Below are positions 12,244 through 27,521 of a DNA stretch of 38,202 nt, piece by piece. The notes under the pieces are model-generated. The model saw nothing but the letters and a program-made list of their open reading frames with translations. It ran no database searches and was not told the origin of the DNA. Numbering within the stretch: the stretch's first letter is position 1; the number at the start of each line of letters is the position of its first letter. Where the stretch lies: positions 1-38,202 of the forward strand of contig JAISQK010000135.1 of assembly GCA_031274255.1 (NCBI GenBank), given 5' to 3'. The stretch is from Planctomycetaceae bacterium (GTDB taxonomy: Bacteria; Planctomycetota; Planctomycetia; Pirellulales; Thermoguttaceae). Made by a program: the position numbers and the translations under genes.

Positions 12244-12540
12244 CGCCAACGTAGCACGTTGGATCGCAATTGCCTCATGATCACTGCGTTCCATTCGGCT
12301 TCTTATTGTCCGCTTCACGTTGTTCCGCTCGTGGATTCCAGTGAGCAACGCGAACGGGTTCGTGGCTCTCGGAGCGGGCAACGTGCGGACGTTGCATCTC
12401 GGATTGCCTTCGGCCTCCAGTTGGAAAGATTTTTCTAACAGAAAGTGACCGCCTCGAAGAGGCTGGGAACAAACCGCCCGTCGCGGCTCGCGACCAATGC
12501 AGCGTGCCACGCTGCCGTGCACATTGGCGAAAAAACGGAA
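12244..12540. repeat. Dispersed multi-hairpin repeat, copy A
   Basis: This non-coding stretch is related to 23665-23965 and 24555-24750. Hairpins visible from left to right are CCAACGT-agc-ACGTTGG (12246-12262), GTTGGAAA/TTTCTAAC (12420-12439), GCCTC-gaa-GAGGC (12451-12463), GTCGCG-gct-CGCGAC (12480-12494) and GCAGCGTG/CACGCTGC (12499-12515). A shared linker reads ACGTTGTTCCGCTCGTGGA with its continuation (from about 12317). Short frames cross it but look like by-products. It lies directly downstream of the DUF362 gene. Confidence 0.75.
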
Positions 12541-12623
12541 AAAGCATGAAGATTCTCCCTGCCGTAATCCGATAGAATCCGCGAGGTCTGTATTGTAGTG
12601 GTTTTATGACAGGGGATGGTTTT

Positions 12624-12858
12624 ATGGGAATAAAACAGCAACAGAAATTTCGGCAATTTCTTGCCGTCCTTTTCGTCAACATTTTGTGCTTCGGTTCTTC
12701 CGGTTGTCTGAATTATCGGCGCCAAAGACGGTGAAGTCAAAGCCCGTGTCGCGATGCTCGAATCACGCATGGAAAATCTGGAACGGATCAGCGGCGTTAT
12801 CCCGTCCTCTTCAAATCAGTGTCTTATTGCGGAAAACATCGCGAAAGAAAATCAGTAA
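12624..12858 (+). pseudogene. Small lipoprotein gene with an apparent one-base frameshift
   Basis: From the ATG at 12624 the frame reads a lipoprotein signal peptide: basic MGIKQQQKFR, a hydrophobic core and a lipobox GSSGC, then CLNY. It runs into a stop soon after. In the +1 frame from about base 718 a coding-quality stretch continues, GAKDGEVKARVAMLESRM and on, ending LIAENIAKENQ at a TAA (12856-12858). Joined by skipping one base near 717 they would give a lipoprotein of about 78 residues with a short coiled coil. A GGGGA ribosome site lies about 9 nt before the ATG. It could be a decayed gene, a sequencing error or a recoded gene. No family is recognised. Confidence 0.45.
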
Positions 12859-12969
12859 AAAAGGCGGAAAACGGCGGCATTTTTCCTAAAAAATGCTAAA
12901 ATTGGTCAGATTTGCGATTTGTCTTCCTAATTAATCAAATTTTGGCATTCTGAATAATATGGTGAAAAA

Positions 12970-13230
12970 ATGTCTGGCGGGTATCTGGACTTGACGAGCG
13001 ACCCTAATGTGAACCCTGCATTGTATTCCACCGATGATGAAACTCCGGCCAAAACTCCGGCAGGACGGAAATTCATCGGAATCAAATTCACCTGTTGCGG
13101 CGTCTACGCAAGAATTTATGTCAATCAGAACAATACCGCCTACGAAGGCCGTTGTCCGAAATGCTTGCGGCCGGTCAATGTCAAAATCGGCAAAGGCGGG
13201 ACAAACACCCGATTCTTCGAAGCCGAGTGA
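12970..13230 (+). CDS. Small Cys-rich (possible zinc-ribbon) protein
   Basis: An 86-residue protein starting at the ATG at 12970. The first 35 residues are polar and probably flexible. The core reads FIGIKFTCCGVYARIYVN and then YEGRCPKCLRPVNVKIGKGG. Cys-Cys followed some 24 residues later by CxxC suggests a metal-binding ribbon with three or four Cys ligands. I recall similar small proteins in planctomycete genomes, but no function is known to me. It stands alone, 112 nt after the frameshifted lipoprotein gene. Confidence 0.75.
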   Translation: MSGGYLDLTSDPNVNPALYSTDDETPAKTPAGRKFIGIKFTCCGVYARIYVNQNNTAYEGRCPKCLRPVNVKIGKGGTNTRFFEAE

Positions 13231-13872
13231 GTTTCGGCGTCTTTTTTCTCATAACTTCGTCTAAGCATGTCTTCCTCGGAGGGTGTTCCCATGACATTGA
13301 CACTTGGTTCTTTTTCTTTTGTCATGGAAGCCGGTTGCAAAATAAGCAGACCGCATAAAATACGAGGTTTTTTACAATAACTTCAATTACAACATCTTGT
13401 AGAACCAATGGGGTATTACACAAAATATATAAATTTTGCTTATTTCGCATTGAGGCTCTTGAATGATACGCAAAGTTCCCGTAAACTTACACACATGACA
13501 AGCATTTCTCATCCCGAGGTGACAGTCGGGCGAACTTTTCATAAGAAATCAAAAGACAGAACAGAAAGAAAATCCTTTCGCAGTAAAAAGAAAAAGATTA
13601 CATAAATTGGGTGACAGCAATTCATGTGAAATTTTTCGGGTAAAAAAAGATACGCAAATTTCAGAGGATAAATCCTTTGCATTGAAAACAGGTTTTGCGC
13701 AAATCAGCGAGTTTTGTATAAAAACTTTTGTACGGTCAAAAAACGTAATATGAGTTGACAACAGAGTGCGTTCCGACTGAAGAAACTGCGATACATAATA
13801 CAACCATAACGGTTGCAAGGATTTTCACTTTTCCAGGTGTTGTGTCTGTTGATTTGGTCAGGAGAAAATGCA
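13231..13872. other. AT-rich intergenic stretch without a supported gene
   Basis: About 640 nt of low-GC DNA. An 8-bp stem CCATGACA/TGTCATGG with a 23-nt loop lies at 13289-13327 and could end the upstream transcript. The 10-mer GATACGCAAA occurs twice (about 13465 and 13650). TTGCGC and TATAAA spaced 16 nt apart near 13696-13723 may be a weak promoter for the next gene. The short frames here have no ribosome site and read as low-complexity Lys/Ser/Arg sequence. Confidence 0.5.
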
Positions 13873-14685
13873 ATGCTTTTTAGAAAACCGGTCATTGGAT
13901 TGAATGCGGATTTTCATGTTCACCTACAGCACAAAACAGAAACGGATCAGGGACAACGGTGGTGTTACAGTCACATTCAAAGCGGATATTATGACTCAAT
14001 AATGAAAGCAGGAGGTGTACCGGTTATCATTCCGCCCTGTTTAAGTGAAAGTGACCTGGACCAGCTTCTTGAGACCCTTGACGGAATGGTCATGGTCGGC
14101 GGAGCGGATTTGAACCCTGTCTTTGACGGATACATCAAACATTCTTTTGTCCGGCCTCTTCACGAACGGCGTGAACGCTTTGACCGCATGCTGATTCAAC
14201 AAGTCGCAAAACACCGTGTCCCCTTTTTCGGAATCGGCACGGGAATGCAGCTTCTCAATGTTTCTCAAGGCGGTACGCTTTATCTGCATATTCCCGAAGA
14301 CCTTCCTCGGGCACTTCCGCATCGCGACCCCAACAGTCTGGAACTTCGCCACACGCTTCTCGTCACTCCGGATTCTCTGATGAGACGTGTTTACGGAGAA
14401 CATGAAATCATCGTCAACAGCTCCCATCACATGGCCGTGGATGATGTCGCCGCGGGTTTTCTGGCGACCGCGCGAAGTCCTGACGGCGTGATTGAGGCCA
14501 TTGAGTCGATTCAGGAGGACTGGTTCGCGTTCGGCACCCAATTTCACCCGGAATCCCCATCCAATACCGCTGTGGACATTCGCGTCTTCTTCGAATTTAT
14601 TGAGGAAATCATGCGGCGGAAAGGAATGGAAATCCCGGAATTCACTGAAGAAATGCTCTTCAGCCGTTCCCGTGTCGGTGTGTGA
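13873..14685 (+). CDS. Class I amidotransferase-like (peptidase C26 type) protein lacking the nucleophile Cys
   Basis: The start is the ATG at 13873, after a CAGGAGA ribosome site. The 270-residue protein matches the gamma-glutamyl-GABA hydrolase (PuuD / C26) fold: GVPVIIPPCLSESDLDQLLE, then DGMVMVGGADLNP near residue 75, and the C-terminal FGTQFHPES, which carries the His and Glu of the triad. The nucleophile elbow, normally GxCxG with Cys, reads FGIGTGMQLLN, with Gly122 at the Cys position. Hydrolysis by the usual thioester mechanism is therefore not expected. It may bind gamma-glutamyl compounds or act as a scaffold or sensor. It lies 84 nt before an AnmK-like gene in the same direction. 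Confidence 0.8.
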   Translation: MLFRKPVIGLNADFHVHLQHKTETDQGQRWCYSHIQSGYYDSIMKAGGVPVIIPPCLSESDLDQLLETLDGMVMVGGADLNPVFDGYIKHSFVRPLHERRERFDRMLIQQVAKHRVPFFGIGTGMQLLNVSQGGTLYLHIPEDLPRALPHRDPNSLELRHTLLVTPDSLMRRVYGEHEIIVNSSHHMAVDDVAAGFLATARSPDGVIEAIESIQEDWFAFGTQFHPESPSNTAVDIRVFFEFIEEIMRRKGMEIPEFTEEMLFSRSRVGV

Positions 14686-14769
14686 AATTCCCTCTGTTCC
14701 CCAACGGGAATCGGGACTGTTTTGACAGCCGCAGTATCGAAACTCTCAACAAATTATTCCTGAATTGTT

Positions 14770-16065
14770 ATGTTTTTCCACTCTCGTTCGTCAGAAACTT
14801 TGAATAAAACATCGAATGTCCGGTGGTTTGTCGGTCTGTATCTGACCACAAACGGTCGGCGTCTTGAGGCGGGGTTGATCGGAATCCACGGATCGGGTTC
14901 CGGAGCCCCTATCGAGGTTTCACAAGGACTCACGGTGGTACTGCCGGAAAAAATCGTTTCGCAGGTGAGAGAGATTAATGAGAACAATGGATTGTGTTTC
15001 GGCAAGGATGCCTTTTTGAATCACGTTAAACAAGAGAAAAGTACCCCAAAGCATGAAAAAACGCAGAGACTCGTTCCAAAAATCTTACAGGAACAGATGC
15101 TTGAGATTCAGGTTGAACTGGTTCATGAGCTGTTGAACAAAAGCGGTGTGGCTCCCGACTCGGTGTTTGCTGTAGGGGTTCATGGTCCGGGAGACTTGGG
15201 AAACTTTCATTCCGATATTTTCTGGAATTCTGCAGCGGTTGCCTCCCGGACAGGTTTGAATATGGTGGATGGGTTTGCGGAAATGGACCGCGCCGTTTCA
15301 GGGAATGGAAGCCCGCTCATCCCCCTTCCTATGTGGATTTTGATGCACTCGGCGAGCAGACATCGGCTCCTGATTGATTTGGGACAGCAGATTCGTGTGA
15401 CATTTCTCCCGTCAGCGGGACACGCAACGAAAGAGCAAATCCAGCACGATATTCTAGGCCCATGCGGTCTCCTCATTGACCCGCTCGCGGCGAAACTCTC
15501 CGAAGGGGAACAAACCTTTGACGAAGGGGGACGTCTGACGGTTCAGGGGCTGTTGATTCCCGAACTGGCGGAATTTTGGAGCGATAATCTTGTGTTGCGG
15601 GATTCCAATTCCCTGCTGGCGGAGGGAATTCAAAAAGCAAAAGCAAAGGAATGGTCGCTCCGAGACTTGCTCTGTACAGCGGTACATTGTATTCAAAATA
15701 AAACAGCGACATTTATCAAAGAACATTATGAGCCGCTGTTGGAAGAGGTCGAGTTTTTTGTGACCGGCGGCTGTCAGCATCACGGACTTCTGATGAAACA
15801 GTTGCGGCAGGAATTACAGGTTCAAAAGTTGCAGCCTCTCGGCACAGCACAATTTTCGTGCAATACGTTTGATGCGTTATGTGTCGCGGTGCTGACGTAT
15901 CTGGCAGTGGATCAGATTCCCGGAAACCTCCCTCACCTGACTCATGCGGACACCACTGCGGTTCTGGGACGCTTCACTCCCGGAACGCCGCAAAACTGGC
16001 TCCGGCTGCTTCAGTGCATGGCGGGAGTCAAGCCCGCAGTACGGACTCTCCGCAGTGCTATGTAA
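14770..16065 (+). CDS. Divergent AnmK-like (anhydro-N-acetylmuramic acid kinase family) protein
   Basis: At 431 residues it is a little longer than typical AnmK (about 370). The C-terminal half matches best: FFVTGGCQHHGLLMKQLRQE, then FDALCVAVLTYLA and IPGNLPHLTHADTTAVLG, equivalent to the GNLPSVTGA end of AnmK. The segment HDILGPCGLLIDPLA aligns with the catalytic YDTGPGN region and keeps the Asp (Asp227). The N-terminal ATP-binding motif GTSLDG is not recognisable (VGLYLTTNGRRLEAG). AnmK phosphorylates 1,6-anhydroMurNAc during cell-wall recycling; this member may be altered or inactive. No Shine-Dalgarno is visible at the ATG at 14770. Its neighbour is another enzyme-like protein with a lost key residue. 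Confidence 0.68.
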   Translation: MFFHSRSSETLNKTSNVRWFVGLYLTTNGRRLEAGLIGIHGSGSGAPIEVSQGLTVVLPEKIVSQVREINENNGLCFGKDAFLNHVKQEKSTPKHEKTQRLVPKILQEQMLEIQVELVHELLNKSGVAPDSVFAVGVHGPGDLGNFHSDIFWNSAAVASRTGLNMVDGFAEMDRAVSGNGSPLIPLPMWILMHSASRHRLLIDLGQQIRVTFLPSAGHATKEQIQHDILGPCGLLIDPLAAKLSEGEQTFDEGGRLTVQGLLIPELAEFWSDNLVLRDSNSLLAEGIQKAKAKEWSLRDLLCTAVHCIQNKTATFIKEHYEPLLEEVEFFVTGGCQHHGLLMKQLRQELQVQKLQPLGTAQFSCNTFDALCVAVLTYLAVDQIPGNLPHLTHADTTAVLGRFTPGTPQNWLRLLQCMAGVKPAVRTLRSAM

Positions 16066-16159
16066 TATTATCAGCTTGATTATTATTGATCTGATTTTGT
16101 GATATTTTTTCAAAAACGGTGAAATCTCCTCAAGTTTGTGAATTTTCTCCTTTTTTCCC

Positions 16160-16188
16160 TTGCAATTCTTGCGTAACTTGGCTAATTT
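16160..16188 (+). promoter_or_regulatory. Possible sigma-70 promoter of the DUF1598-type gene
   Basis: TTGCAA and TAATTT are separated by 17 nt, about 110 nt before the start at 16300. The surrounding region is AT-rich. The -10 match is only moderate. Confidence 0.3.
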
Positions 16189-16299
16189 ATTAAATAGATG
16201 GGATTTTTAACCATGTAAACGGACAAGTGACGCGGTTTTATGTATCGCATTTCAATAAACCCTTGATTATTTACGGGCTTAGCTTCAACGAGGAAAAAA

Positions 16300-17643
16300 A
16301 TGATTCAGATGTCTTCAACCATGAAAAAATTGACACTTCTGCTTTGGGGAGGGCTTTTGCTCGTCTGCCTGAATTCTTCCGCATGGGCACAGTATTACGG
16401 TTACACGCAGGCCATCGGCGGTGTTTCCATTGACCGTGACATGGTGAAAAATGCAACCCAGGAGATGCGGAAGAGTCTGAAGCAAGAGGTGCTTTCCAAA
16501 CTTCAGGCCATTCCCGAAGGACTCGACCAAGTTTCTTCGGAACGCAAGGTTTCGTTGAAAAAAATGGACGCCGCTCTGAAAGAAGCGATGGAGAAAAAGT
16601 CACCAGTGCCGGACTCTGTCCGTTTTCTCGGCGGTTTGACTTCCATACATTATGTCGCGGCCCTGCCGGAAGAAAATGACATTGTTCTGGTCGGTCCTGC
16701 GGAAGGCTGGACGGTCGGCGATTTCGGAACGGTGATTGGAAAAGATTCCGGCAAACCGATCTTGTTGCTGGAAGACCTGATTACGGTTTTTCGTACATGG
16801 AATACCAGTCAGCCGGAACTTATCAGTTGTTCCATTGACCCGACACCGGAAGGCCGGACGCGATTGAATGAAAACCGTAGCGAATTACGTAGTATCCGCG
16901 ATCCCGAAACGCAGGCGGAAAAGATTCGCGACCTTCTTGGTGCGCAAGCCGTGACACTCACTGGAGTTCCGGCCGACAGCCGTTACGCGAACATCATGGT
17001 CGCGGCGGACTACCGGATGAAGCGTATCGGTCTGAAACTTGATCCGGCTCCGATTTCCCGTTTTCCAAGTTATGTCGAAATGGTTCGCTCTACCCGGGAA
17101 AGTACCGCTCCGCGATTCTGGATGGTCGGACAGATGAACCAAATCAAACATGATGAAAGTAAGATGGTTTGGGACATGGGCAGCGTGAAAATCATCACCT
17201 TGACGGCTCGTGAACACATTGACCAATCCGGCAACCGCGCCGAAGCGGTGAAAACGGACGCCGCCGCCAAACGCTGGGCCGACATGATGACCAAGCGGTA
17301 CAACGAGCTTGCTGATGTGGATTATTCTTTCGCGGAACTGCGGAATTGTGTTGATCTGGCAGGTGTCGTTGCGGTGGTTTATTCGCAGCAGCTTCATCAG
17401 AAAGTCAACTGTCCGCTCCCGACGATTCTGAATCAGAGTCTCAAACTTCCCGGCTACAACGCTCCGAAAACGGTTGCTACGGAGTACAGTATCGTTCAAC
17501 CGGTGCGCGGAAGTATTTTTGTCGGTTGCGGCGGTGTGGAAGTCAACCCGATGTCCGGTATTCTCGCTGCCAAACAGGACAACGCTCTTGCCGAAGTTGC
17601 CGAAAGGCTGAACTTTACCGGTGATGATTGGTGGAGCAATTAA
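16300..17643 (+). CDS. Secreted DUF1598-type protein
   Basis: The ATG at 16300 has a GAGGA site 5 nt upstream. A signal peptide follows (KKLTLLLWGGLLLVCLNSSA, cleavage likely after WAQ). The 447-residue protein has an N-terminal helical part (residues 40-105, KSLKQEVLSKLQAIPE) and a mixed domain with GWTVGDFGTVIGKDSGKPIL near residue 145. A conserved body follows, FPSYVEMVRSTRESTAPRFW near residue 250 and RCVDL-like RNCVDLAGVVAVV near residue 350. I associate this layout with DUF1598, a domain described from planctomycetes. The function is unknown. It converges on the Nudix gene. Confidence 0.7.
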   Translation: MIQMSSTMKKLTLLLWGGLLLVCLNSSAWAQYYGYTQAIGGVSIDRDMVKNATQEMRKSLKQEVLSKLQAIPEGLDQVSSERKVSLKKMDAALKEAMEKKSPVPDSVRFLGGLTSIHYVAALPEENDIVLVGPAEGWTVGDFGTVIGKDSGKPILLLEDLITVFRTWNTSQPELISCSIDPTPEGRTRLNENRSELRSIRDPETQAEKIRDLLGAQAVTLTGVPADSRYANIMVAADYRMKRIGLKLDPAPISRFPSYVEMVRSTRESTAPRFWMVGQMNQIKHDESKMVWDMGSVKIITLTAREHIDQSGNRAEAVKTDAAAKRWADMMTKRYNELADVDYSFAELRNCVDLAGVVAVVYSQQLHQKVNCPLPTILNQSLKLPGYNAPKTVATEYSIVQPVRGSIFVGCGGVEVNPMSGILAAKQDNALAEVAERLNFTGDDWWSN

Positions 17644-17674
17644 CTGACGGACAGGCAACTTTCCTGAACAGGAT

Positions 17675-18196
17675 TTATGATTTTGTCCTCATGCCGAGGA
17701 TGTAGTACATCAGAGCGGTCAGTGTTTTGGCGTCTTTGATTTCACCGTCGGAGATCATACGGCGAATTTCGTCCCATGGGACAATCATCAGTGAGATGTC
17801 TTCGCCGTCTTCGAGTGCTGTCGGCCCCGGAGTCAGATCCGTTGCGAGGAAAAGGTGAAGTTCCTCACGAAGGATTCCGGGCGACGAAAAAATCGTGGTG
17901 ATCGGTTCGATTTTTCCGGCAGTGTAACCGGTTTCCTCAATCAGTTCCCGCGATGCCGTCGCGATCGGCTCTTCATTGGGTTCGAGTGTTCCGGCGGGAA
18001 TTTCAATCAACCAATCGTTGACCGCCACGCGGTACTGGCGGATCAAAATAACTTGTGAGCCGTTCAAAACCGGCAGAATTCCGACCGCACCGGGATGCAT
18101 GATCACATGACGCTCCAGTTGTTTGCCGCTCCGACCGGTCTGAAAACGTTTCTCAATATAAAAAAGACGGCTTTGGAAAAGTTTTTCCTCTGACAT
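17675..18196 (-). CDS. Nudix hydrolase, ADP-ribose pyrophosphatase type
   Basis: The ATG at 18196 follows a CAGGAA site and gives 173 residues, the usual size of this group; a longer in-frame extension upstream lacks conserved sequence. The Nudix box is complete: GTLEPNEEPIATAS followed by RELIEETGY, matching Gx5Ex7REUxEExGU with the metal-binding glutamates. A preceding beta-strand QVILIRQYRVAVNDWLIEIPAG is typical of ADP-sugar pyrophosphatases, which split ADP-ribose into AMP and ribose 5-phosphate in the cytoplasm. It is the last gene of a minus-strand series and lies 61 nt after holB. Confidence 0.9.
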   Translation of the reverse strand: MSEEKLFQSRLFYIEKRFQTGRSGKQLERHVIMHPGAVGILPVLNGSQVILIRQYRVAVNDWLIEIPAGTLEPNEEPIATASRELIEETGYTAGKIEPITTIFSSPGILREELHLFLATDLTPGPTALEDGEDISLMIVPWDEIRRMISDGEIKDAKTLTALMYYILGMRTKS

Positions 18197-18257
18197 TGTT
18201 CCTGATTTCCTTTGACTATCGATTTGTATCACTCTATGTGACGATATGTCTGTTTCT

Positions 18258-19304
18258 CTAAATCTGCGGCAGTTCCTGCGTCCATGCGTCGATGATGTAC
18301 GGAATCTGAACATTCCGGTCAATCTGTTCGAGTGCCGTATGAGTCTGCTCCGCCGCACGGAAAACACGAGACAAGTCGTTCTGAAATGTCTGAGTTCCTC
18401 TCTGCAAATACGGGAGCAAGTCCCGCGACGGAAGGTTGGCCGCATCCATTCCGGCGAGGAACCGTCCGAGATTCCGGTAGAACTCCAGCGTCATGATCAG
18501 AATTTGCGTCAATCGGTTCCTTCGCAAAATCGCTTCTTTTCCGGCAGACTCCACAAATTCGTTGAGCTTTATTGCAAACGGCACCGGATTCGGCACACCG
18601 AGGGCAATCTCTTTGAAGAGGATGTCACGGATTTCGCTGAGCGAATCGTCACAGAACTGTCTGGCCTGTTCGAGTCCGCCGTCGGAGCGTTCCGCCAGCC
18701 GCAACGCCTGTTCCATTGACGCGGCAATCCCCTGATCCTTCAGCAGACGGGCAAGATCATTGACCGCAAGCGGCAAAAAACGGATGATTTTACAACGGGA
18801 ACGAATCGTCGGGAGCTGTTTGGCCGCGCTCGTTCCGATCAAAATGAAAATCGCCTTCGGCGGCGGTTCTTCGAGTGTTTTAAGAAGTGCATTGGCACCT
18901 TCCTGATTCAGATCATCCGCGTCGTCAATCACGGCAATTTTGTATCCGTTCGCAAACGCCTTGCGCGACATTCCGTAGCAGAGCCCGCTTTTTCCCCGTT
19001 TTTCTTTCTCACCAATCAGAAGATCGACCGGAATCGCCGACTTATCCTCCGGCTTGGCAATGGTGATGAAATCCGGATGGTTTCCCGTTTCAACCTGTTG
19101 ACACGCCGGACAAACACCGCAAGCGTCAAGCATCTCCGGCGGCCGGTTCCGGCAAAGTAACGACTTCGCCAACATACGGGCAAACATCCGCTTGCCGACC
19201 CCTTTCGGACCGACAAAAAGATAACTTCCCGGCAGACGGTTCCGCTGCGCCGCCCGACGAAACCGTTCCGCCACATGGTCATGTCCGATCATGTTCTGCC
19301 ACAT
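18258..19304 (-). CDS. holB: DNA polymerase III, delta' subunit
   Basis: The start at 19304 is supported by an AGGAGA site. The 348-residue protein shows the clamp-loader delta' layout: a P-loop-like GPKGVGKRMFA near residue 30, a zinc module with Cys in LLCRNRP and CGVCPAC, the Walker-B region IAVIDDADDLNQEGANALLKTLEEPPP, and the sensor motif TIRSRC. The P-loop has Arg where Thr/Ser is usual, consistent with delta' being a poor or inactive ATPase. It helps load the sliding clamp at replication forks. It sits between an EIIA-Ntr-like gene and the Nudix gene on the same strand. Confidence 0.93.
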   Translation of the reverse strand: MWQNMIGHDHVAERFRRAAQRNRLPGSYLFVGPKGVGKRMFARMLAKSLLCRNRPPEMLDACGVCPACQQVETGNHPDFITIAKPEDKSAIPVDLLIGEKEKRGKSGLCYGMSRKAFANGYKIAVIDDADDLNQEGANALLKTLEEPPPKAIFILIGTSAAKQLPTIRSRCKIIRFLPLAVNDLARLLKDQGIAASMEQALRLAERSDGGLEQARQFCDDSLSEIRDILFKEIALGVPNPVPFAIKLNEFVESAGKEAILRRNRLTQILIMTLEFYRNLGRFLAGMDAANLPSRDLLPYLQRGTQTFQNDLSRVFRAAEQTHTALEQIDRNVQIPYIIDAWTQELPQI

Positions 19305-19419
19305 GGTTTTCTCCTGCTTACTGATTTGACACCGACAACATGCGTTACCGCCGGAGCCAAACATGACTCTCCCATTTTCTTTCGACACGTGACAGCAGAA
19401 AGTGCGGACATTTCCGGAT

Positions 19420-20148
19420 TCACGGCTTACCTTCCGCCTTAGGATAGATTTCCGCCTCGGTATCGGCAATGAGTGCCAATATCTCGTCCGACGACTCAAG
19501 ACTCCGCAGCGATGTCAGGAATCCTTCCGCCGTGATGATACGGCTGAGCCGGGCGAGTATCCTCAGGTGCATCTGGTCGTCCGTGCTGCAAATGAGGAAA
19601 AAGATGTCGGTCAAGCCGCCGGTGTCGCCAAAATAAACTCCGTTCGGTGCGATTCCCAGAGCAATGAACGATTCTCCGAGAATGCTTCCCATCGGACGCC
19701 GCGGATGAAGCAGTGCCACTCCGTTGCCGAGCGCCGTCGGATGCAGTTCTTCACGTTTGCGGAGAGCCTCAATCATTTTCTCCGTGTCCCAAAGATAACC
19801 GGTGTTCGCCGCCAATTGCACCATCGAACGGATGGCGGACTCTTTCGTCCTCACCGGAAACGGCACCGCAATCGCTTCACGGGGAATGATTTTTGCTATC
19901 GGAATATTTTTCTGTCCGTCTGCCGGAGCCGCTTTTTCCAGAGCGTCCTCCATGCTGGCAAGTGTCCGGTCGTCGCTCAGACCGATCCGCTGTTCGAGCC
20001 AATGATGGATTTCCGCGTGAGCGAACTGCCAGTCCCCTTTGATTTTCCGTCCGGGAAGATCGCCTCGGTCCGCCAGTTTTTTCACTTGATTTTCCGGCAA
20101 ATGAAGGTATTTTGCCAATTGCGGCAGGTCAAATGTGGTATCAGCCAT
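19420..20148 (-). CDS. HTH (excisionase-type) plus EIIA-Ntr domain protein
   Basis: A 242-residue two-domain protein. Residues 5-52 form a winged-helix DNA-binding part of the MerR/excisionase helical type (LPENQVKKLADRGDLPGRK, ending AEIHHWLE). Residues about 85-235 are a PTS EIIA domain of the nitrogen/fructose type. The phospho-acceptor region reads TALGNGVALLHPRRP, with His148 at the active position. EIIA-Ntr proteins sense phosphotransfer status and link it to nitrogen, carbon or potassium control. The fused DNA-binding domain suggests that phosphorylation may control transcription directly. It is 24 nt downstream of the CxxxxCH gene and precedes holB, so is probably in an operon. Confidence 0.85.
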   Translation of the reverse strand: MADTTFDLPQLAKYLHLPENQVKKLADRGDLPGRKIKGDWQFAHAEIHHWLEQRIGLSDDRTLASMEDALEKAAPADGQKNIPIAKIIPREAIAVPFPVRTKESAIRSMVQLAANTGYLWDTEKMIEALRKREELHPTALGNGVALLHPRRPMGSILGESFIALGIAPNGVYFGDTGGLTDIFFLICSTDDQMHLRILARLSRIITAEGFLTSLRSLESSDEILALIADTEAEIYPKAEGKP

Positions 20149-20172
20149 GGAATACTCAAACCGCCCGGCGTG

Positions 20173-21381
20173 TCAGCGTTCCGTAGGGCCTGTGACACGC
20201 TCCGGGTGAAATTGTTGATTAAACACACCAGGGTCAAAAGGATTCCGCCCCTTTTGTTCTATAATACCTTCTCTTTGGATGGGGTCAACGATTCTCACAG
20301 GCAAATCCTCCGTTTGCGGTACAATTTCTCCATTTTCTTGCGGAAAAAGCCTCGTCCGACCTCCAAAACCGCTATTGTCTTCGGGAAAAAACCCTTCCGC
20401 AAGCGAATGTTTCACCGGAACCGCCTCCTCTGTTTTTTGACTGTTTTTCAAAAGCGGAACTCCCGGCTTTGGAAATTTTGCACGGTTCATTTCAGCACTC
20501 AAATCCGTAAAATTGGTCTGATTGATCCCCTCACCGTGATTTGTGCCGCCGGGAATCCCCTCACCGGCATGGATTTTGTCCCATTTCTCCACCACCTCCA
20601 TCGACCAGTAGTACAGAGTTTCGTACAGTGCAAGATTTTTAACGGTAAATATCTGTTTCGCTTTTCCGTGAGGCACGATCGGCTTGACCAGCAACGGGCT
20701 GTCGGCCGGACTGTCGGGATTGAGACGCCGAATCACCGCGGCAAGATTTTTGAGTGTTGCCGTTTTTTCCTTCGATTTGACCAAACTTTCGAGCTGGAAA
20801 GAAGTGACACTGTGAGTTCCGTGACATGCCAAACCATTGCACCGTTTGAAAAGGAGCGGCTGAATCTCCTCTTGGAAGGGGACATAAATTTCCGGTGGAA
20901 GCGACTTTTCCCAGTCGAGGAGTTTTTGCTCTTCTTCGGAAAGCTCTTTGATTAAAGGGGTTACGCTGTTTTCCTGACGCAGCAAAGTTTCCTTGCGCCG
21001 CTGCATTTCCGACGCCAGCGAGGAAGATTCCGTCAGTTGGATCGCGCGATCGTATTCGATTTCCCCTTCGGTCCTGAGGTCGTTTCGGAAACACCATTCC
21101 GCCAAAGTCATGAAATCATAAGATGTGACCGCTTTGGATTTTTTATGGCCGTAAACATCCGGCAGGGTTTTGCCGATAAAGTCGATGTCGCGTGTTTTGA
21201 AATCGATACTGCCGAACTGGGTGAGAACGGTCATTTCGTCATCCGTGACACGGAGTGCCCCTTGAATGATGCTGCCGTTTTTCAAGAGAATAAAGCCGGA
21301 TGACGGTATTTCCGCTTGTAAATTTTGTGCTGAAATCGCAAAAACTAGAAGAAAAACCCAAAGATCACGTTTCACGGACAT
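20173..21381 (-). CDS. Exported protein with a non-canonical CxxxxCH motif
   Basis: The start at 21381 gives a signal peptide (SVKRDLWVFLLVFAISAQNLQA). The mature part begins with a short SH3-like or Sm-like segment, GFILLKNGSIIQGALRVTDDEM, often seen in planctomycete exported proteins. A helical region leads to RCNGLACHGTHSVTSFQLE near residue 210. The Cys-x4-Cys-His spacing resembles the haem-binding CxxCH motif but is longer, and planctomycete exported proteins often carry such variants. The C-terminal 130 residues are Pro/Gly/Asn-rich. The length is 402 residues. Haem binding is not proven by sequence. The next gene starts 24 nt downstream. Confidence 0.7.
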   Translation of the reverse strand: MSVKRDLWVFLLVFAISAQNLQAEIPSSGFILLKNGSIIQGALRVTDDEMTVLTQFGSIDFKTRDIDFIGKTLPDVYGHKKSKAVTSYDFMTLAEWCFRNDLRTEGEIEYDRAIQLTESSSLASEMQRRKETLLRQENSVTPLIKELSEEEQKLLDWEKSLPPEIYVPFQEEIQPLLFKRCNGLACHGTHSVTSFQLESLVKSKEKTATLKNLAAVIRRLNPDSPADSPLLVKPIVPHGKAKQIFTVKNLALYETLYYWSMEVVEKWDKIHAGEGIPGGTNHGEGINQTNFTDLSAEMNRAKFPKPGVPLLKNSQKTEEAVPVKHSLAEGFFPEDNSGFGGRTRLFPQENGEIVPQTEDLPVRIVDPIQREGIIEQKGRNPFDPGVFNQQFHPERVTGPTER

Positions 21382-21527
21382 TTCGGAACCGCCGCTTGGA
21401 GGGAATGATGTTGATTCAATACCGCTTTCGCGTATCATCGGAAATTCCGTCCGCCGTGTCAAGGTGAAATATTTTTCCGAATGCTGATGCGGTTTGTCCG
21501 GTCTCCTCCGCGGACGTCTCCGAACCG

Positions 21528-22682
21528 TCACTGACATTCCAGATTCAGTGTCTTGAGCGAGTCAAGCCGGTTGAGGATTTCCATCATTTCGGGAGTCACC
21601 GACACGCAGGACAAATCAAGCGATGTCAACTCGCGGTACTTCTTCAGGGCCGTCACCCCTTCCAAAGTCAACAGCGTTTTGCGGAGTGAAAGCGTTTCCA
21701 GTTTCGGACGTGCCGTTTCTTCCGCCGCCAGTTTTTCGAGAAATTCGCCGCTTACCATCATGTCGCAAATGGTGAGCCGCCGCAGATTCGGAAAGTGCCG
21801 GAGCGACAGCATGGCTTCATCGAAAAGCTGCATGTCACGGTTGAAGACGAGTGTCGTGATTTTTGCGGCCCAATCCTTGTTCGACGCCATTTCCGCGAAC
21901 CCTGCCGGAGAAATCATGGCGTCGTCAATGGTCAAGCCGGTCAGATTCGGCAGCTTGACCATTGTTTTCAGCACCTCATCGGTAATGGAAAAACCTCCGA
22001 CTTTCAGGTCGGTCAACTGCGGCATTCCGGCAAGCAACGTGTAATCCTCCGAGGTCAGCGAACTGCAATCCCGCAGGTCCAGCCCTTTCACCGTCTTCAT
22101 CCGAAGGATTTCTTCAAGGCCGGCACGGCTCAGAGGGATGCCGATCAGCGAAAGCGACTTCAATCGGGAGTGAGCCGCAATGTGTGAAATCCCCTGATCC
22201 GTGACATTCGGCGAACTCCGCAAAGTCAACCGTGTCAGTTTGGGAAGTCCCGAAAGGATGACCTGCAAGTCCGCGTCCCGAACCGGCGTGTCCTGAAGAT
22301 AAAGCTCTTCCAATGACTTTTGTCCGGCGATTTTGCCCAGTGTCTCCTGAGAAACCGTTCCGCCCGCCGCTCGCAGTTTTCTGAGATTCGGAATCAATAA
22401 AGCCTGCTGCAAAATCTCGTCCGGCACCGAAGAGCGTCCCTTGGCAAGATTGACGCCGATAAGCGTTCCCTTCCGGTCGCGTTCCACTTCACCGAAGACG
22501 GCCTCAATCTGCAAAACAATGGAATCCGTATCCGGTTCGGAAACCGTTTTTTCCGGAGCGTCCGTCTTTTCAGGAGAGCTTTGCCCGGGAGAATCGGGAG
22601 AAGAGGGCTTCGGAGCTTTCGGACAACCGGCGGCCGACATGACAACCGCGGACAATAAAATCAGGAAAATTCGGTGTTTCAT
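21528..22682 (-). CDS. Leucine-rich repeat lipoprotein
   Basis: The ATG at 22682 opens a lipoprotein signal peptide with lipobox SAAGC, and Cys20 would be lipidated. A Pro/Ser/Glu-rich linker of about 40 residues follows. The rest is a series of LRRs of the RNI/cysteine-containing type (LEELYLQDTPVRDADLQVI, LTRLTLRSSPNVTDQGI, LKSLSLIGIPLSRAGLEEI, LTSLDLSCVSVTPEMMEIL). LRRs form curved binding surfaces, so a role in protein binding at the membrane is likely; the partner is unknown. The length is 384 residues. It is the first gene of the minus-strand series and diverges from the M23 gene. Confidence 0.83.
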   Translation of the reverse strand: MKHRIFLILLSAVVMSAAGCPKAPKPSSPDSPGQSSPEKTDAPEKTVSEPDTDSIVLQIEAVFGEVERDRKGTLIGVNLAKGRSSVPDEILQQALLIPNLRKLRAAGGTVSQETLGKIAGQKSLEELYLQDTPVRDADLQVILSGLPKLTRLTLRSSPNVTDQGISHIAAHSRLKSLSLIGIPLSRAGLEEILRMKTVKGLDLRDCSSLTSEDYTLLAGMPQLTDLKVGGFSITDEVLKTMVKLPNLTGLTIDDAMISPAGFAEMASNKDWAAKITTLVFNRDMQLFDEAMLSLRHFPNLRRLTICDMMVSGEFLEKLAAEETARPKLETLSLRKTLLTLEGVTALKKYRELTSLDLSCVSVTPEMMEILNRLDSLKTLNLECQ

Positions 22683-22723
22683 AAGAGGCAATGTCCTAAA
22701 AATCCCGTGAATTTGCAAATCCG

Positions 22724-22752
22724 TTGCAGAAAAACGGGGTTCCTGTTATACT
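22724..22752 (+). promoter_or_regulatory. Sigma-70-type promoter of the M23 peptidase gene
   Basis: TTGCAG and TATACT are separated by exactly 17 nt. The start of transcription would be near 22759, leaving a leader of about 165 nt. Confidence 0.6.
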
Positions 22753-22758
22753 TTTGTT

Positions 22759-22922
22759 TTTACCGCCCCGAACCGTTCGAACCAAGGCGGTACTCCATAG
22801 CCGAAAGGTATTATGGCACGGACTTGACCGGTTTTCAAGAGGGACTCATTAAAAAGATCCGCTTTCGTTTTCCGCATTCTCAAGGGGAAAGCGGTCGAGC
22901 GGAGGAAAGAAAGGAGATCAGG
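22759..22922 (+). promoter_or_regulatory. Structured 5' leader of the M23 peptidase gene
   Basis: The leader has three separate inverted repeats: TACCGCC/GGCGGTA (22761-22767 with 22786-22792), CTTGA/TCAAG (22823-22839) and CCGCTTTC/GAAAGCGG (22859-22894). The last ends about 14 nt before a strong AAGGAGAT ribosome site. It matches no riboswitch class that I can name. A thermosensor, protein-binding leader or unknown element are possible. Confidence 0.45.
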
Positions 22923-23645
22923 ATGGCAAAAAAGAGACGGATTTTGACTCGGATTTTGATTCTGCTGTGGATTCTTCCCGCCGGAATTGTTTCGGGCGGG
23001 GAGGAACAGGAAACGTCCCGGACGGCGGCCCGTGACGCGGGGCAATCTCCGGCGAGGCGGAATGTCACGAAACTCGGACTTCCGTTCGAGGGGGAATGGT
23101 CGGTTGTCTGGGGCGGCGACACCAAAGAGCTGAATTATCACGTGGAAAACGAGGCCCAGAAGCACGCCTTTGATTTTATCATTCGTGACACCGGCGGGAA
23201 ATCCTTCCGAACGGACGGACGCACCAACGAGGATTATTACGCATTCGGCAAGAAACTTTACGCTCCCTGTGACGGCGAGGTGGTTCTGGCGGTGGACGGC
23301 GTGAAAGACAATGTGCCGGGAAAGATGAACCCGTATTATGTGCCGGGAAACACGGTCATTCTCAGGACGGAGAACGGTGAGTATCTGTTTTTCGCTCATT
23401 TCAAGCAGCATAGTCTCAAGGTGAAACAGGGACAGCGGGTCGTCCGCGGAGACGTGTTGGGACGTTGCGGCAATTCGGGGCGTTCCTCGGAGCCGCATCT
23501 CCATTTCCATCTTCAGGACGCGGAAGAAATGACGGAGGCTTCCGGCGTGAAATGTTATTTCGACCGGCTTTTTGTCAACGGCGTGGAAAAATACGATTAT
23601 TCCCCGATTCAAAAGGACAAGGTCACGTTGGAATGGATAAGGTGA
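22923..23645 (+). CDS. Exported M23 (LytM-type) peptidase
   Basis: The ATG at 22923 follows AAGGAGAT, the best ribosome site in the window. The signal peptide is KKRRILTRILILLWILPAG. The LytM domain has the zinc ligands His81 and Asp84 in KHAFDF and His193 in EPHLHFHL, with His158 (FFAHFK) and His191 at the other active-site positions. Such enzymes cut peptide cross-links in peptidoglycan or other glycine-rich peptides; some members are inactive activators. All key residues are present, so activity is likely. The length is 240 residues. A hairpin-rich repeat starts about 20 nt after the stop. Confidence 0.9.
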   Translation: MAKKRRILTRILILLWILPAGIVSGGEEQETSRTAARDAGQSPARRNVTKLGLPFEGEWSVVWGGDTKELNYHVENEAQKHAFDFIIRDTGGKSFRTDGRTNEDYYAFGKKLYAPCDGEVVLAVDGVKDNVPGKMNPYYVPGNTVILRTENGEYLFFAHFKQHSLKVKQGQRVVRGDVLGRCGNSGRSSEPHLHFHLQDAEEMTEASGVKCYFDRLFVNGVEKYDYSPIQKDKVTLEWIR

Positions 23646-23664
23646 AAAAAGAAGGACCGGGGGA

Positions 23665-23965
23665 AGCGTGCCGCTGCACCGCAGTTGCCTTCGGCCTCAA
23701 TGCCCCGCTCCCGCTGGTCGCTGGAGTCCGGCGATATTTTTGTTTTATGTTCCAAGTGATTCGTTGGAAAGATTTTCCAACTGGCGGCGAACCGGCAGCG
23801 TGGCACGCTGCACCGCACTTGCCTCCCGGCTTCGCGTTCGGCTTCCAGTGATAACGTTGTTCCACTCGCGGATTCCAGCGAGCAACGTGAGCGGGTCATT
23901 GCTTCGGAGCGGTAGCTCCATCCGCCCGCCGCGGCTCGCGGCCCGCCGGAGGCATCCTGTTGACA
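23665..23965. repeat. Dispersed multi-hairpin repeat, copy B
   Basis: It is related to copies A and C. Hairpins are GTTGGAAA-gat-TTTCCAAC (23763-23781), GCAGCGTG-g-CACGCTGC (23795-23811), GGAGC-ggta-GCTCC (23906-23919) and GCCGCG-gct-CGCGGC (23928-23942). The linker ACGTTGTTCCACTCGCGGA with its continuation (from about 23851) matches copy A closely. The module order differs from copy A, so the family is mosaic. It lies directly downstream of the M23 gene. Confidence 0.75.
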
Positions 23966-24206
23966 ACAATATTCATCATTCATCGGTTTAATATCCTATT
24001 GTGTTTCGATCATCCTGAACGGCCTCCCTTGAATACCTGAATCATCCCCATTTCCTGTTACGGGAATCCCATAGGAAGAATCCTTGACTCCTTACGAGAT
24101 TCGTTCGATGCCGTGGACGGTTAGGGAATCAGAATATGGATTTCGAGGAGAAAAACGTCATAAATCCTTTACTCCGCATAAGTTGCACATTATTCCCGAG
24201 GTATCC

Positions 24207-24426
24207 GTACTCAAGTACGATCATTCCGCACTACAGTACAAGTGTTTCGTACTCAAGTACAAGAGTTACGCACTCCAGTGCGATTGTTCAGTACTCAAAC
24301 ACGAGGGTTATGTACTTAAGTACGATAATTCCGCATTCAAGTACGAGTTCTCTGTATTCAAGTACCAGGAGTTACGTATTCAAACACGAGAGTACAGGAA
24401 TTATATATTCAAGTACGAGAATTCCG
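24207..24426. repeat. 21-bp tandem array of short palindromes (10 units)
   Basis: Units begin at 24207, 24228, 24249, 24270, 24291, 24312, 24333 and 24354 (exact 21-nt steps), then 24376 and 24405. Each unit starts with a 12-nt near-palindrome of type GTACTCAAGTAC and continues with a variable 9-nt spacer. Unit 4 reads GCACTCCAGTGC, so both arms changed together, and unit 6 is a perfect palindrome, GTACTTAAGTAC. Two frames stay open across it because 21 is divisible by three, giving heptad-like peptides. The changes favour the palindrome rather than a peptide. Confidence 0.8.
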
Positions 24427-24554
24427 AAGAAGACAATAAGAATCGTGCAGCACAAATCAGAATCAAGAGGGAGAGCATGAAGTTGATGGCGGGAACCCAT
24501 TTCGGATTGGCAGAATACCGCGTAAAGAAATTTTTTCTCAGCAAGACATTAAAG

Positions 24555-24752
24555 GAATGCCTCCGGCGGGCAGCGTATCACGCAGCACCGCAGTAGGGAC
24601 TACCGTCCCGAGAGCCAAACCCGCTCCTATTAGTCGCTGGAATCAACCGGCGGAACAAAAAAAGAAAAACGGTGGGAAACGTTATCCAACCGAAGCCGAC
24701 CGTCTCGAAGAGACTGGGAAGCAAGTGCGGTGCAGCGTGCTACGCTGCCGGT
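24555..24752. repeat. Dispersed multi-hairpin repeat, copy C
   Basis: A worn copy starts with CGGGCAGCGTATCACGCAGC and ACCGCAGT, then the hairpin GGGAC-tacc-GTCCC near 24597. It continues with a degraded GTTGGAAA-type hairpin (24673-24690), GTCTC-gaa-GAGAC (24702-24714) and GCAGCGT-gct-ACGCTGC (24732-24748). The last hairpin ends 5 nt before the stop codon of the M50 gene on the other strand. Confidence 0.7.
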
Positions 24753-25457
24753 TTATCGCCAACTGCCGCGGGTCATGGATTGGTAATTTTCATAAGCCAG
24801 AATTCCAAACAGGATTGCGATGTAGTAATTTCCCTGAAATCGGGTCAGGCAAAGCACCACCACGCCGAGAGCCGCCACGAAAGAAATCCGCAGTGCGACG
24901 ATGTCACCCTGCCACGGGGAAAACCAGAGACAAAGCTCCCGGCAAATCTGACCGCCGTCTAACGGATAGACCGGGAGAAGATTGATGAATCCCCAGAAAA
25001 ATCCGATAAAGCAGATAAAATAAAGAATTTCCAGTAAATAATACAAATTCGAATCCCCGCCAGGAATCATGTAACGCAATAAAAAATAGCAGAGTCCTGC
25101 CAAAAGAAATCCCGCCAAAGGACCGCCGAGCGAAATCAGTATCTGTCCCCAAGTGCCGGGACGCTTTCGGGAATACTGCGGATGATGGCACGCCAAACCG
25201 CCGAAGGAGTAAAGGATAATCCAGGGCGACGCCCCAAAAATATAGCGGATAATCAAAGCGTGTCCCAGTTCATGAACCAGAATTGCGATAAAAACGGCAA
25301 CAACCCAGCACAAAATCCGTTGCGTACCATTTTCACTCTCTCCGAGGTTCAGTCCCATAAAAACAGACACCAACCAAAAAAACGGGTGAATCCGAACCGG
25401 AATACCGAAAAGTGTGAACCGGACATCGTAGGGGGTTTGTGAAGACTCATTGAACAT
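24753..25457 (-). CDS. M50-family (site-2-protease type) membrane metalloprotease
   Basis: A 234-residue integral membrane protein with about six hydrophobic segments. The zinc motif is HELGH (near residue 63) inside a membrane helix, and the third ligand region reads NLLPVYPLDGGQ (near residue 166), both typical of site-2 proteases. There is no PDZ or CBS domain, so it is a minimal form. Members cut transmembrane anchors, often of anti-sigma factors or small membrane proteins; the substrate here is unknown. The start at 25457 has an AAGGA site. It diverges from nikR and shares the intergenic region. Its 3' end abuts a hairpin repeat. Confidence 0.9.
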   Translation of the reverse strand: MFNESSQTPYDVRFTLFGIPVRIHPFFWLVSVFMGLNLGESENGTQRILCWVVAVFIAILVHELGHALIIRYIFGASPWIILYSFGGLACHHPQYSRKRPGTWGQILISLGGPLAGFLLAGLCYFLLRYMIPGGDSNLYYLLEILYFICFIGFFWGFINLLPVYPLDGGQICRELCLWFSPWQGDIVALRISFVAALGVVVLCLTRFQGNYYIAILFGILAYENYQSMTRGSWR

Positions 25458-26027: not shown

Positions 26028-27407
26028 TCACATGATCAGTTCGAAGTTTTCTTCAGGAGCGTCGCGGTCCAGACGGTCCATCAGAATGTTCAGGATTTTC
26101 AGCAGCAATTGCAGACTTCCGCGATAACCGGTCATCGGCACATACGACTGACCGATACGGTCGTAAATCGGGAATCCCATCCGTAAGAGCGGAATGTCCA
26201 TGTCGCGGCACATATATTTACAGTAGGTGTTACCGACAATCAGGTCCGGTTTGTCCGCCATGACCAATTGTTGGAACATGAACATGTCGCACTGCAAACC
26301 GGACCGGACCGTTACCTTTTCTCCGCAGATTTCGCGGATACGGTCTTCAAACCTGAATTTTCCGGACGGTGTTCCGGTGAGGACATGCAGCACCTCCATT
26401 CCGGCGTCTTTACAGAATTGAGCCATGGAAATCAGAATATCCGGGTCGCCCATCAGAGAGACTTTTTTACCATAGGTGTACTGGCACATATCGCACAACA
26501 CGTCAACCAGCTGACCACGTTCCACACGTAATGATTCCGGCACGGAAACGCCGGCGGCTTTACGGAGTGTATCGACAAACGCATCCGTGGCCGTGATTCC
26601 GAGAGGAATATCGACGATTTTGAACGGCACTTTGCATTGCGTGTCCAGGAGTTTGGCAGCAGCCTGGGCACCGTAAAGTCCGATGGCAATCGCATAATCG
26701 GAATCGCCGGATGCTTCAATCCATTCCTTTTTACAGCCTCCTTTGGGATACATGCGGAATTTGCCGTCGAGCGGACCGTTGACGACATCGCTGGTATCGG
26801 GGTACATGATGTAGGGAACATCCATTTCCGCAGCGATAGATTTGATTTCCGTCATGTCGCTTGGTTCGAGGAATGACGGAATCAATGTGATTCTGCCGTT
26901 TTTCCGGCCGGTCTTTTTGGCGAAATACTTGACCATCGCCGCGGCCATATTGGCGTAGCCAGTCACATGCGATCCGGTGAAAGACGGTGTGTTCGCATGA
27001 ATAACGATTTTCCCTTCGGGAATTTTTTTCTCTTCATACGCTTTTTTGATGATTTGCACCATATCATCGCCGATCACCTCCGAGAGACACGTTGTGTTGA
27101 CCGCCACAATGTCCGGATTGTAAAGCGTGAAAATATTATTGAACGCTTCGAGCAGGTTTGCCTGTCCGCCGAAAACCGAGGAACCTTCCGAAAAGGAGGA
27201 AGTGGAGGCCATAATCGGGTCGTTATAGTGCCGCGTCAGACTGCTGCGGTGATACGCGCAACATCCTTGTGAACCGTGACTGTGCGGTAAACAATTATGA
27301 ATTCCGAGTGCGGCATACATCGCACCGATAGGCTGACAGGTCTTGGCCGGATTGATCGTCAAGGCGTTCCTCTCGGAAAGCCCCGGCGGTGTGTGTCGAA
27401 GAAGCAT
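26028..27407 (-). CDS. nifK: Mo-nitrogenase MoFe protein, beta chain
   Basis: NifK forms the alpha2-beta2 dinitrogenase with NifD and shares the P-cluster. The P-cluster ligands are visible as Cys24 (KTCQPIGAMYAALG), Cys49 (HGSQGCC) and Cys107 (NTTCLSEVIGDD), with Ser146 in PSFTGSHVTG at the position of the redox-linked serine. The text matches NifK rather than NifN, AnfK or VnfK. The short N-terminus fits anaerobe-type proteins. I place the start at the ATG at 27407 because GAAGGAAAG lies just upstream; a TTG at 27443 would add 12 residues without a good site. At 459 residues it is full length. No nifD or nifH flanks it, and a sigma-54-type element lies upstream. Confidence 0.93.
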   Translation of the reverse strand: MLLRHTPPGLSERNALTINPAKTCQPIGAMYAALGIHNCLPHSHGSQGCCAYHRSSLTRHYNDPIMASTSSFSEGSSVFGGQANLLEAFNNIFTLYNPDIVAVNTTCLSEVIGDDMVQIIKKAYEEKKIPEGKIVIHANTPSFTGSHVTGYANMAAAMVKYFAKKTGRKNGRITLIPSFLEPSDMTEIKSIAAEMDVPYIMYPDTSDVVNGPLDGKFRMYPKGGCKKEWIEASGDSDYAIAIGLYGAQAAAKLLDTQCKVPFKIVDIPLGITATDAFVDTLRKAAGVSVPESLRVERGQLVDVLCDMCQYTYGKKVSLMGDPDILISMAQFCKDAGMEVLHVLTGTPSGKFRFEDRIREICGEKVTVRSGLQCDMFMFQQLVMADKPDLIVGNTYCKYMCRDMDIPLLRMGFPIYDRIGQSYVPMTGYRGSLQLLLKILNILMDRLDRDAPEENFELIM

Positions 27408-27521
27408 CTCTCTTTCCTTCTGAATAGGAGTGTAAGTAGGCAATGTGTTTCATGCGGTGAATCCTTTGTCTCCGACGGCAGGGTATTCCCGTCGGTGCCA
27501 TGAATTGTTGTAACTCATCTA

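Follow-up and report, generated by a model that had tools for sequence, protein, structure and literature searches.

The 38,202-nucleotide stretch analysed here (contig JAISQK010000135.1 of a Planctomycetaceae bacterium, assembly GCA_031274255.1; the whole stretch is called the window) carries three copies of a dispersed family of multi-hairpin repeats, which are probably short non-autonomous mobile DNA elements spread over one order and part of its class in Planctomycetota-like hosts. The first-pass annotation of the window had described the three copies as members of a dispersed family with covarying arms; all three, and every arm quoted for them, are present in the sequence at their positions. 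The family is far larger than these three: a covariance model of its core unit gives at least 150 matches in the genome under study (G000), where all 150 scored candidates matched, and BLAST within the same genome gave 64 pieces with copy 3 and 76 with copy 2 (40 candidates scored for each). In the following, the hairpin modules are lettered A, B, C, D, E, and F or P (the third hairpin), with Z for an end motif; compared genomes are numbered (G003, G058, and so on), and g33 is the genus of G057–G060.

The arms quoted in the earlier module list stand, but the list overlooked the conserved D-E core and did not include the D hairpin with its tandem G·A mismatch. The core spans 47 nt and consists of two hairpins, D and E; the more variable third hairpin follows downstream. 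D (AGCGACCAACGGGAGCGG), the best conserved part across genomes in the alignment, is built of GC, then a tandem G·A/A·G mismatch, two further pairs, and an ANC loop; E lies ~10–14 nt downstream and has a 5-bp stem closed by a GGNA loop. Both hairpins are recovered unprompted by RNAalifold, and the mismatch and the asymmetric loops are nearly invariant in the D-E alignment of 92 distinct copies from 14 genomes. These copies were picked by a D-like pattern (at most 2 substitutions) together with the GGNA loop, a selection that enriches motif sequence and that, for E, does not enrich pairing at the variable positions.

The stems of the core change on both sides together. In the alignment, 97.7% of cells are paired, against 79% after shuffling and 25–47% in slid controls; both-sided changes occur at 7 of the 9 D-E pairs, with 150 double-change cells, and the covariation score is 0.486, whereas shuffling gives 0.152 and sliding no more than 0.152. 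The shuffle control makes the result look more significant than it is, since related copies have a common history; the argument for covariation therefore rests on the slid control and on how many genera differ in their stems. The D pattern used for the alignment favours known alleles, and D is tested more cleanly by a pattern that leaves all six stem positions open: with it, all three stem pairs are complementary at 159 of 173 sites, the alleles being CC/GG, GC/GC, CT/AG, and AC/GT, with an outer pair of C/G or T/A. Similarly, the flanks of E, whose loop was chosen blind to pairing, pair at 87–98% per position (30–45% slid), and across genomes the stem occurs as GGAGC, GGGAC, GGTGC, GGCGC, CGAGC, CGCGC, CGCGT, and TGCGC, with the complement present each time.

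The A, P, and B modules behave in the same manner in a 380-kb sample of G000. Pairing is found at 38 of 39 P modules and 16 of 19 B modules, and at 55 of 159 loosely anchored sites of the A module, far above the 200 shuffles (mean 7.9, maximum 15), which bears out the paired arm changes reported from the window. Neither outcome named in the annotation as refuting it, a family limited to three copies or pairing at chance level, was observed. The mosaic order of modules is likewise verified, around a preferred grammar of A-B-C-D-E-F-Z: copy 3 reads A-B-C-D-E-F-Z on the minus strand, copy 2 reads B-C-A-B-C-D-E-P-Z on the plus strand, and copy 1 begins with A-B-C-D and ends in inverted modules. 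In G000, D alleles are independent of E alleles (p 0.22) and of third-hairpin alleles (p 0.92), whereas E alleles are linked to those of the third hairpin (p 0.0007). Tandem arrays also occur (G000, ~97 bp; G051, ~105 bp; G402, 109 bp). A and F modules contain a motif, GnG-R-TnnA-R-CG (e.g., 12499–12515 and 24570–24590), whose two purines are nearly always identical in the own-genome sample (AA 83, GG 58, AG 2, GA 7), and they are identical in 55 of 55 paired A hairpins.

At no more than 1 mismatch, the D core alone occurs 101 times in G000. Among the 397 genomes of the order, the D pattern is found in 68, very unevenly and with up to ~190 copies per genome; a reversed control pattern yields at most 2 matches per strand in any of the 397. 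Counts reach 140–190 in four g33 species, 168 in G263, and 53 in G402, and are zero in many neighbours; in the genus of the host, hardly any copies of the family are found beyond its own species. In a phylum-wide sample, the exact D pattern is nearly limited to the class (27 in G665 and 3 in G705; two sporadic genomes). The family, not confined to G000, extends across the order and into a few genomes elsewhere in its class. Good matches to the D-E model also lie on roughly twelve or more IMG/VR contigs; the viral contigs L354, L356, L377, and L380 each hold at least two D-E units, and such contigs are a possible route of the element between species. Several copies sit at contig ends, a warning that these repeats fragment assemblies. 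Among the papers covered, a search with the core sequence string found none, and the family is apparently undescribed so far.

Elements of the family have entered genes and differ by presence or absence between related genomes. A helicase gene of G003 contains a 102-nt in-frame insert with D, E, and the third hairpin, at a point where more than 10 helicase homologues are contiguous; no clear target duplication is seen at this junction. In the squalene-hopene cyclase of G058, 40 residues are inserted between parts matching residues 462 and 468 of the enzyme of known structure, 1gsz. Further in-frame candidates are the lipid-A-disaccharide synthase (LpxB), PutA, and HD hydrolase genes of G263, a FliF-FliG fusion (G059), and a phage-type capsid gene (G039). 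Detection accounts for part of this preservation of frame, since a gene interrupted out of frame would not show up as a gene. Syntenic regions of G057–G060, mostly 89–98% identical, differ by whole elements; many copies in g33 are 150-bp inverted pairs resembling REPINs (paired forms of repetitive extragenic palindromes, REPs), and G000 and most other genomes carry single D-E units. The gene spacers of g33 (G057–G060; L335–L337) are hypervariable and full of short units in tandem (GGCAGTA and GTTGCGA, for example), on account of which the insertion junctions could not be fixed.

Each copy had been said to abut the 3' end of a gene. This is correct for the window, where copy 1 lies ~88 nt past the stop of a DUF362 gene, copy 2 ~20 nt past that of an M23 peptidase gene, and copy 3 ~3 nt past that of an M50 peptidase gene (24753–25457), but genome-wide it is only a tendency, and some copies stand in frame within genes. 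The context counts rely on gene calls by a simple codon-usage script with approximate edges, made on contigs sampled for holding copies; coding density is near 76% in the own-genome sample. Per kb of spacer, G000 has 1.66 copies between convergent genes, 0.71 between codirectional, and 0.20 between divergent ones, a contrast that is weak in other genomes, and 11 of ~196 located copies fall inside predicted genes, a context that would suit selfish DNA. Codirectional spacers hold 30 copies in sense and 48 in antisense (12:13 in G000 and 18:35 elsewhere), and in-gene copies occur in both orientations; this absence of a sense-strand preference argues against a role at mRNA 3' ends, and the context pattern fits insertion followed by removal from promoters and genes rather than a transcript-level role. 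The tandem G·A is present on one strand only, so that recognition probably concerns one strand of the element. Of the 13 copies on the G385 chromosome, 12 occupy the G-rich strand of their half, which might be anticipated if the element inserted into DNA that is single-stranded at the fork; noticed post hoc, this is a hint only, and G705 gave no clear picture of a replication-strand bias.

According to the favoured explanation, the transmitted unit would comprise D, the short spacer, E, and the third hairpin; one strand would fold, most likely while single-stranded, into the shape that is recognised, and an enzyme provided in trans would copy or move it. Copies would come to rest chiefly in gene spacers and be kept where they do no harm, including in frame within genes; in G000, the unit has become embedded in the larger A-B-C-D-E-F-Z mosaic, whose hairpin modules are exchanged between copies. 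Selection for shape is proposed as the reason that arms change in pairs and the G·A mismatches and loops stay. The family, its structure and covariation, its distribution, the presence/absence polymorphism, the insertions within genes, and the shuffling of modules are demonstrated; single-stranded DNA as the active form, and a transposase acting in trans as the mover of the element, are inferred. Several points weigh against such an interpretation: no mobilising enzyme was identified; the polymorphic spacers are too variable for a target duplication or a conserved insertion site to be made out; mobility in G000 itself is suggested by copy number and by the relatives of this genome, as no close relative offers an empty site; and the strand bias of G385 does not recur as a correlation with local skew in a pooled sample of 15 genomes (80 vs 81).

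One rival reading is a REP/REPIN family moved by a REP-associated tyrosine transposase (RAYT), a Y1 HUH transposase, as in enterobacteria and Pseudomonas. Short imperfect hairpins whose stem mismatch is conserved, the many copies, the mosaics, and the 150-bp inverted pairs of g33 would all suit such a family; E. coli REPs likewise require a conserved stem mismatch (PMC8266576), and Y1 genes occur in 81 of the 119 genomes of the host's family. The association with a RAYT or other Y1 gene, one that the first-pass annotation had raised, was nevertheless rejected, since neither proximity nor genome co-occurrence supports it. A D-like copy lies within a few kb at 3 of 30 Y1 loci examined, close to the expectation from density; G062, G063, G068, G069, and G077 have 16–30 D copies each and no Y1 hit, within the limits set by incomplete metagenome-assembled genomes (MAGs), whereas G024 and G044 have 16–17 Y1 hits and zero D. 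The one Y1 gene found in G000, which is IS200-like (L083, C344:11385–11729), has another repeat on its flanks, consisting of palindromes of its own (e.g., CTGCCCTGTAAGGGCAG); gene and palindromes are possibly a separate REP system. A GTAG-type tag was not seen 5' of D in the copies inspected, and movement of the family by a RAYT is accordingly regarded as unlikely. The annotated likeness to REPs and to bacterial interspersed mosaic elements (BIMEs) survives in its general nature, that of a large dispersed mosaic whose structure is kept by paired changes, but not in any link to a RAYT.

Alternatively, the repeats could be structured RNAs at mRNA 3' ends or non-coding RNAs, their covariation stemming from RNA function; the strong covariation, the conserved loops, the RNA-typical tandem G·A, and the enrichment in convergent spacers of G000 are in keeping with this, yet it is made very unlikely by the orientation counts given above, by in-gene copies lying both ways round, and by a patchy distribution of 0 to 190 copies among related genomes, and no gathering-level Rfam match exists in the window (the best E-value, 0.25, is below the cut-off and falls over copies 2 and 3). 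Covariation might also arise without selection, through template-switch correction of palindromes combined with gene conversion and the swapping of hairpin cassettes. Palindrome correction is a known mutational process, and whole arms do switch together among few alleles while modules shuffle freely; however, correction would erase the G·A/A·G mismatch and lose the asymmetric loops, both of which are nearly invariant, and the dispersal of the family is left unexplained, making this an improbable account.

The reading as non-autonomous mobile DNA may be extended, tentatively and with some doubt, to a RAYT-independent class of mobile hairpin DNA, marked by the tandem G·A and the GGNA loop, that has spread through the order and its phages, diversifies its stems by compensatory change, and has repeatedly added to proteins in frame. 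The element would be a mobile hairpin whose shape is conserved more than its sequence across an order, with compensatory alleles coexisting in one genome; it would offer a test bed for recognition by a single-strand transposase or an RNA partner, bear on the means by which non-autonomous repeats last where no RAYT can be detected, and provide in its enzyme insertions a natural case of protein growth by repeats outside Rickettsia. The modules of the window copies are collected in the table, where R1 is the covariance model behind the bit scores.

Table. Modules of the three hairpin-repeat copies in the window, with the basis of each assignment.
Copy	Feature	Position	Strand	Basis
1	A hairpin, allele CCAACGT/ACGTTGG	12246..12262	+	exact coordinates, module parse
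1	B module, CATGATCACTGCGTTCCATTCGG type	12272..12299	+	module parse, coordinates
1	D hairpin (12340-12357, GTGAGC-AAC-GCGAAC), E replaced by another hairpin	12340..12398	+	model R1, 38.6 bits, E-value 8.9e-8
1	Hairpin GCAACGT/ACGTTGC standing in for E arm	12378..12395	+	sequence
1	Short B module TTGCCTTCGGCCTC	12404..12417	+	module parse
1	C hairpin GTTGGAAA...TTTCTAAC	12420..12439	+	exact coordinates
1	B hairpin GCCTC/GAGGC, inverted	12451..12463	-	B-module pairing test, coordinates
1	P hairpin GTCGCG/CGCGAC, inverted	12480..12494	-	P-module pairing test, coordinates
1	A hairpin GCAGCGT/ACGCTGC, inverted	12499..12515	-	sequence, coordinates
2	D remnant, reverse orientation, core 23705-23722	23677..23722	-	model R1, 30.5 bits
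2	Short B module	23685..23698	+	module parse
2	C hairpin GTTGGAAA/TTTCCAAC	23763..23781	+	module parse
2	A hairpin GCAGCGT/ACGCTGC	23795..23811	+	module parse
2	B module, CCCGGCTTCGCG type	23821..23842	+	module parse
2	D hairpin GCGAGC-AAC-GTGAGC, tandem G·A mismatch	23877..23894	+	model R1, 58.6 bits, E-value 1.7e-12 (23877-23922)
2	E hairpin GGAGC-GGTA-GCTCC	23906..23919	+	alignment, model R1
2	Third hairpin (P/F) GCCGCG-GCT-CGCGGC	23928..23942	+	P-module pairing test
2	End motif Z GCCGGAGGCAT	23945..23955	+	module parse
3	End motif Z	24557..24567	-	module parse
3	Third hairpin (F) GCTGCGT/ACGCTGC, imperfect	24570..24586	-	exact coordinates
3	E hairpin GGGAC-GGTA-GTCCC	24596..24609	-	alignment, model R1
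3	D hairpin GCGACT-AAT-AGGAGC	24621..24638	-	model R1, 50.8 bits, E-value 1.2e-10 (24593-24638)
3	B hairpin GTCTC/GAGAC	24702..24714	-	B-module pairing test
3	A hairpin GCAGCGT/ACGCTGC, adjoins M50 peptidase stop	24732..24748	-	sequence, coordinates

Other features of the window were recorded as well. Between copies 2 and 3, at 24206–24445, lies a 21-bp tandem array on the palindrome GTACTCAAGTAC, which has just one other place in the 380-kb sample. In its start region, a DUF1559/N_methyl gene (31421–32629, minus strand) carries AAAATG with a run of 13 G (32607–32619) directly behind it, and similar tracts of G9–G14 recur elsewhere in G000, several of them ahead of the same pilin-like start; the tract is a candidate for slippage-based phase variation. 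The repeat flagged by k-mers at 32522–32624 lies outside the hairpin family and represents a DUF1559 paralogue together with the poly-G tract. A gene at 26028–27443 encodes a nitrogenase component 1 type domain (Oxidored_nitro, E-value 3e-118), and genes of DUF1559 and DUF1598, which are typical of Planctomycetes, were also found; with a glutamate synthase whose best match, at 54%, was to a Planctomycetota MAG, they support a placement at phylum level.

Among known systems, the ends of IS200/IS605 elements and the miniature inverted-repeat transposable elements (MITEs) derived from them resemble the present element in that asymmetric single-strand hairpins with mismatches serve as recognition sites; they differ in that no flanking transposase copy and no left/right end pair were found for the element. 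In cyanobacteria, small dispersed repeats (SDRs) are mobile sequences of very small size that sit within other repeats and are shuffled among them. By description, SDRs, which are named in PMC3116915, share with the element the shuffling of small mobile modules among repeats, but here paired hairpins stand in a preferred order around a conserved D-E core. The Rickettsia palindromic elements (RPEs), of ~100–150 bp, are inserted into protein genes of unrelated kinds with the reading frame kept, and occur in spacers as well (PMC10969869); compared by behaviour, the likeness lies in the insertion of both into unrelated genes in frame (here the helicase and the squalene-hopene cyclase), whereas the hosts are unrelated and the present copies are mostly in spacers, with a structured core, covarying stems, and GGNA and ANC loops.

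REP, BIME, and REPIN families come closest in form, being mismatch-bearing hairpins of high copy number that build mosaics (PMC3116915, PMC8266576). Short imperfect palindromes (20–50 nt in REPs) in more than 100 copies, mostly in spacers, with a stem mismatch and mosaics, are common to both, and the inverted-pair form of g33 resembles a REPIN. In contrast to these families, the element combines two covarying hairpins with a third, has copies in genes, and conserves one core across an order; the bases 5' of D differ from genome to genome and also inside one genome (CA, CC, GT, GA, TT, among others) with no GTAG-type tag, and no RAYT gene flanked by the element was found, although incomplete MAGs leave some doubt on the latter. 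It is on the tag and the RAYT association that a place among the REPs fails. The element is not shown to be either a REP/REPIN or a Rickettsia palindromic element, but it works like both of them, as non-autonomous palindromic mobile DNA.

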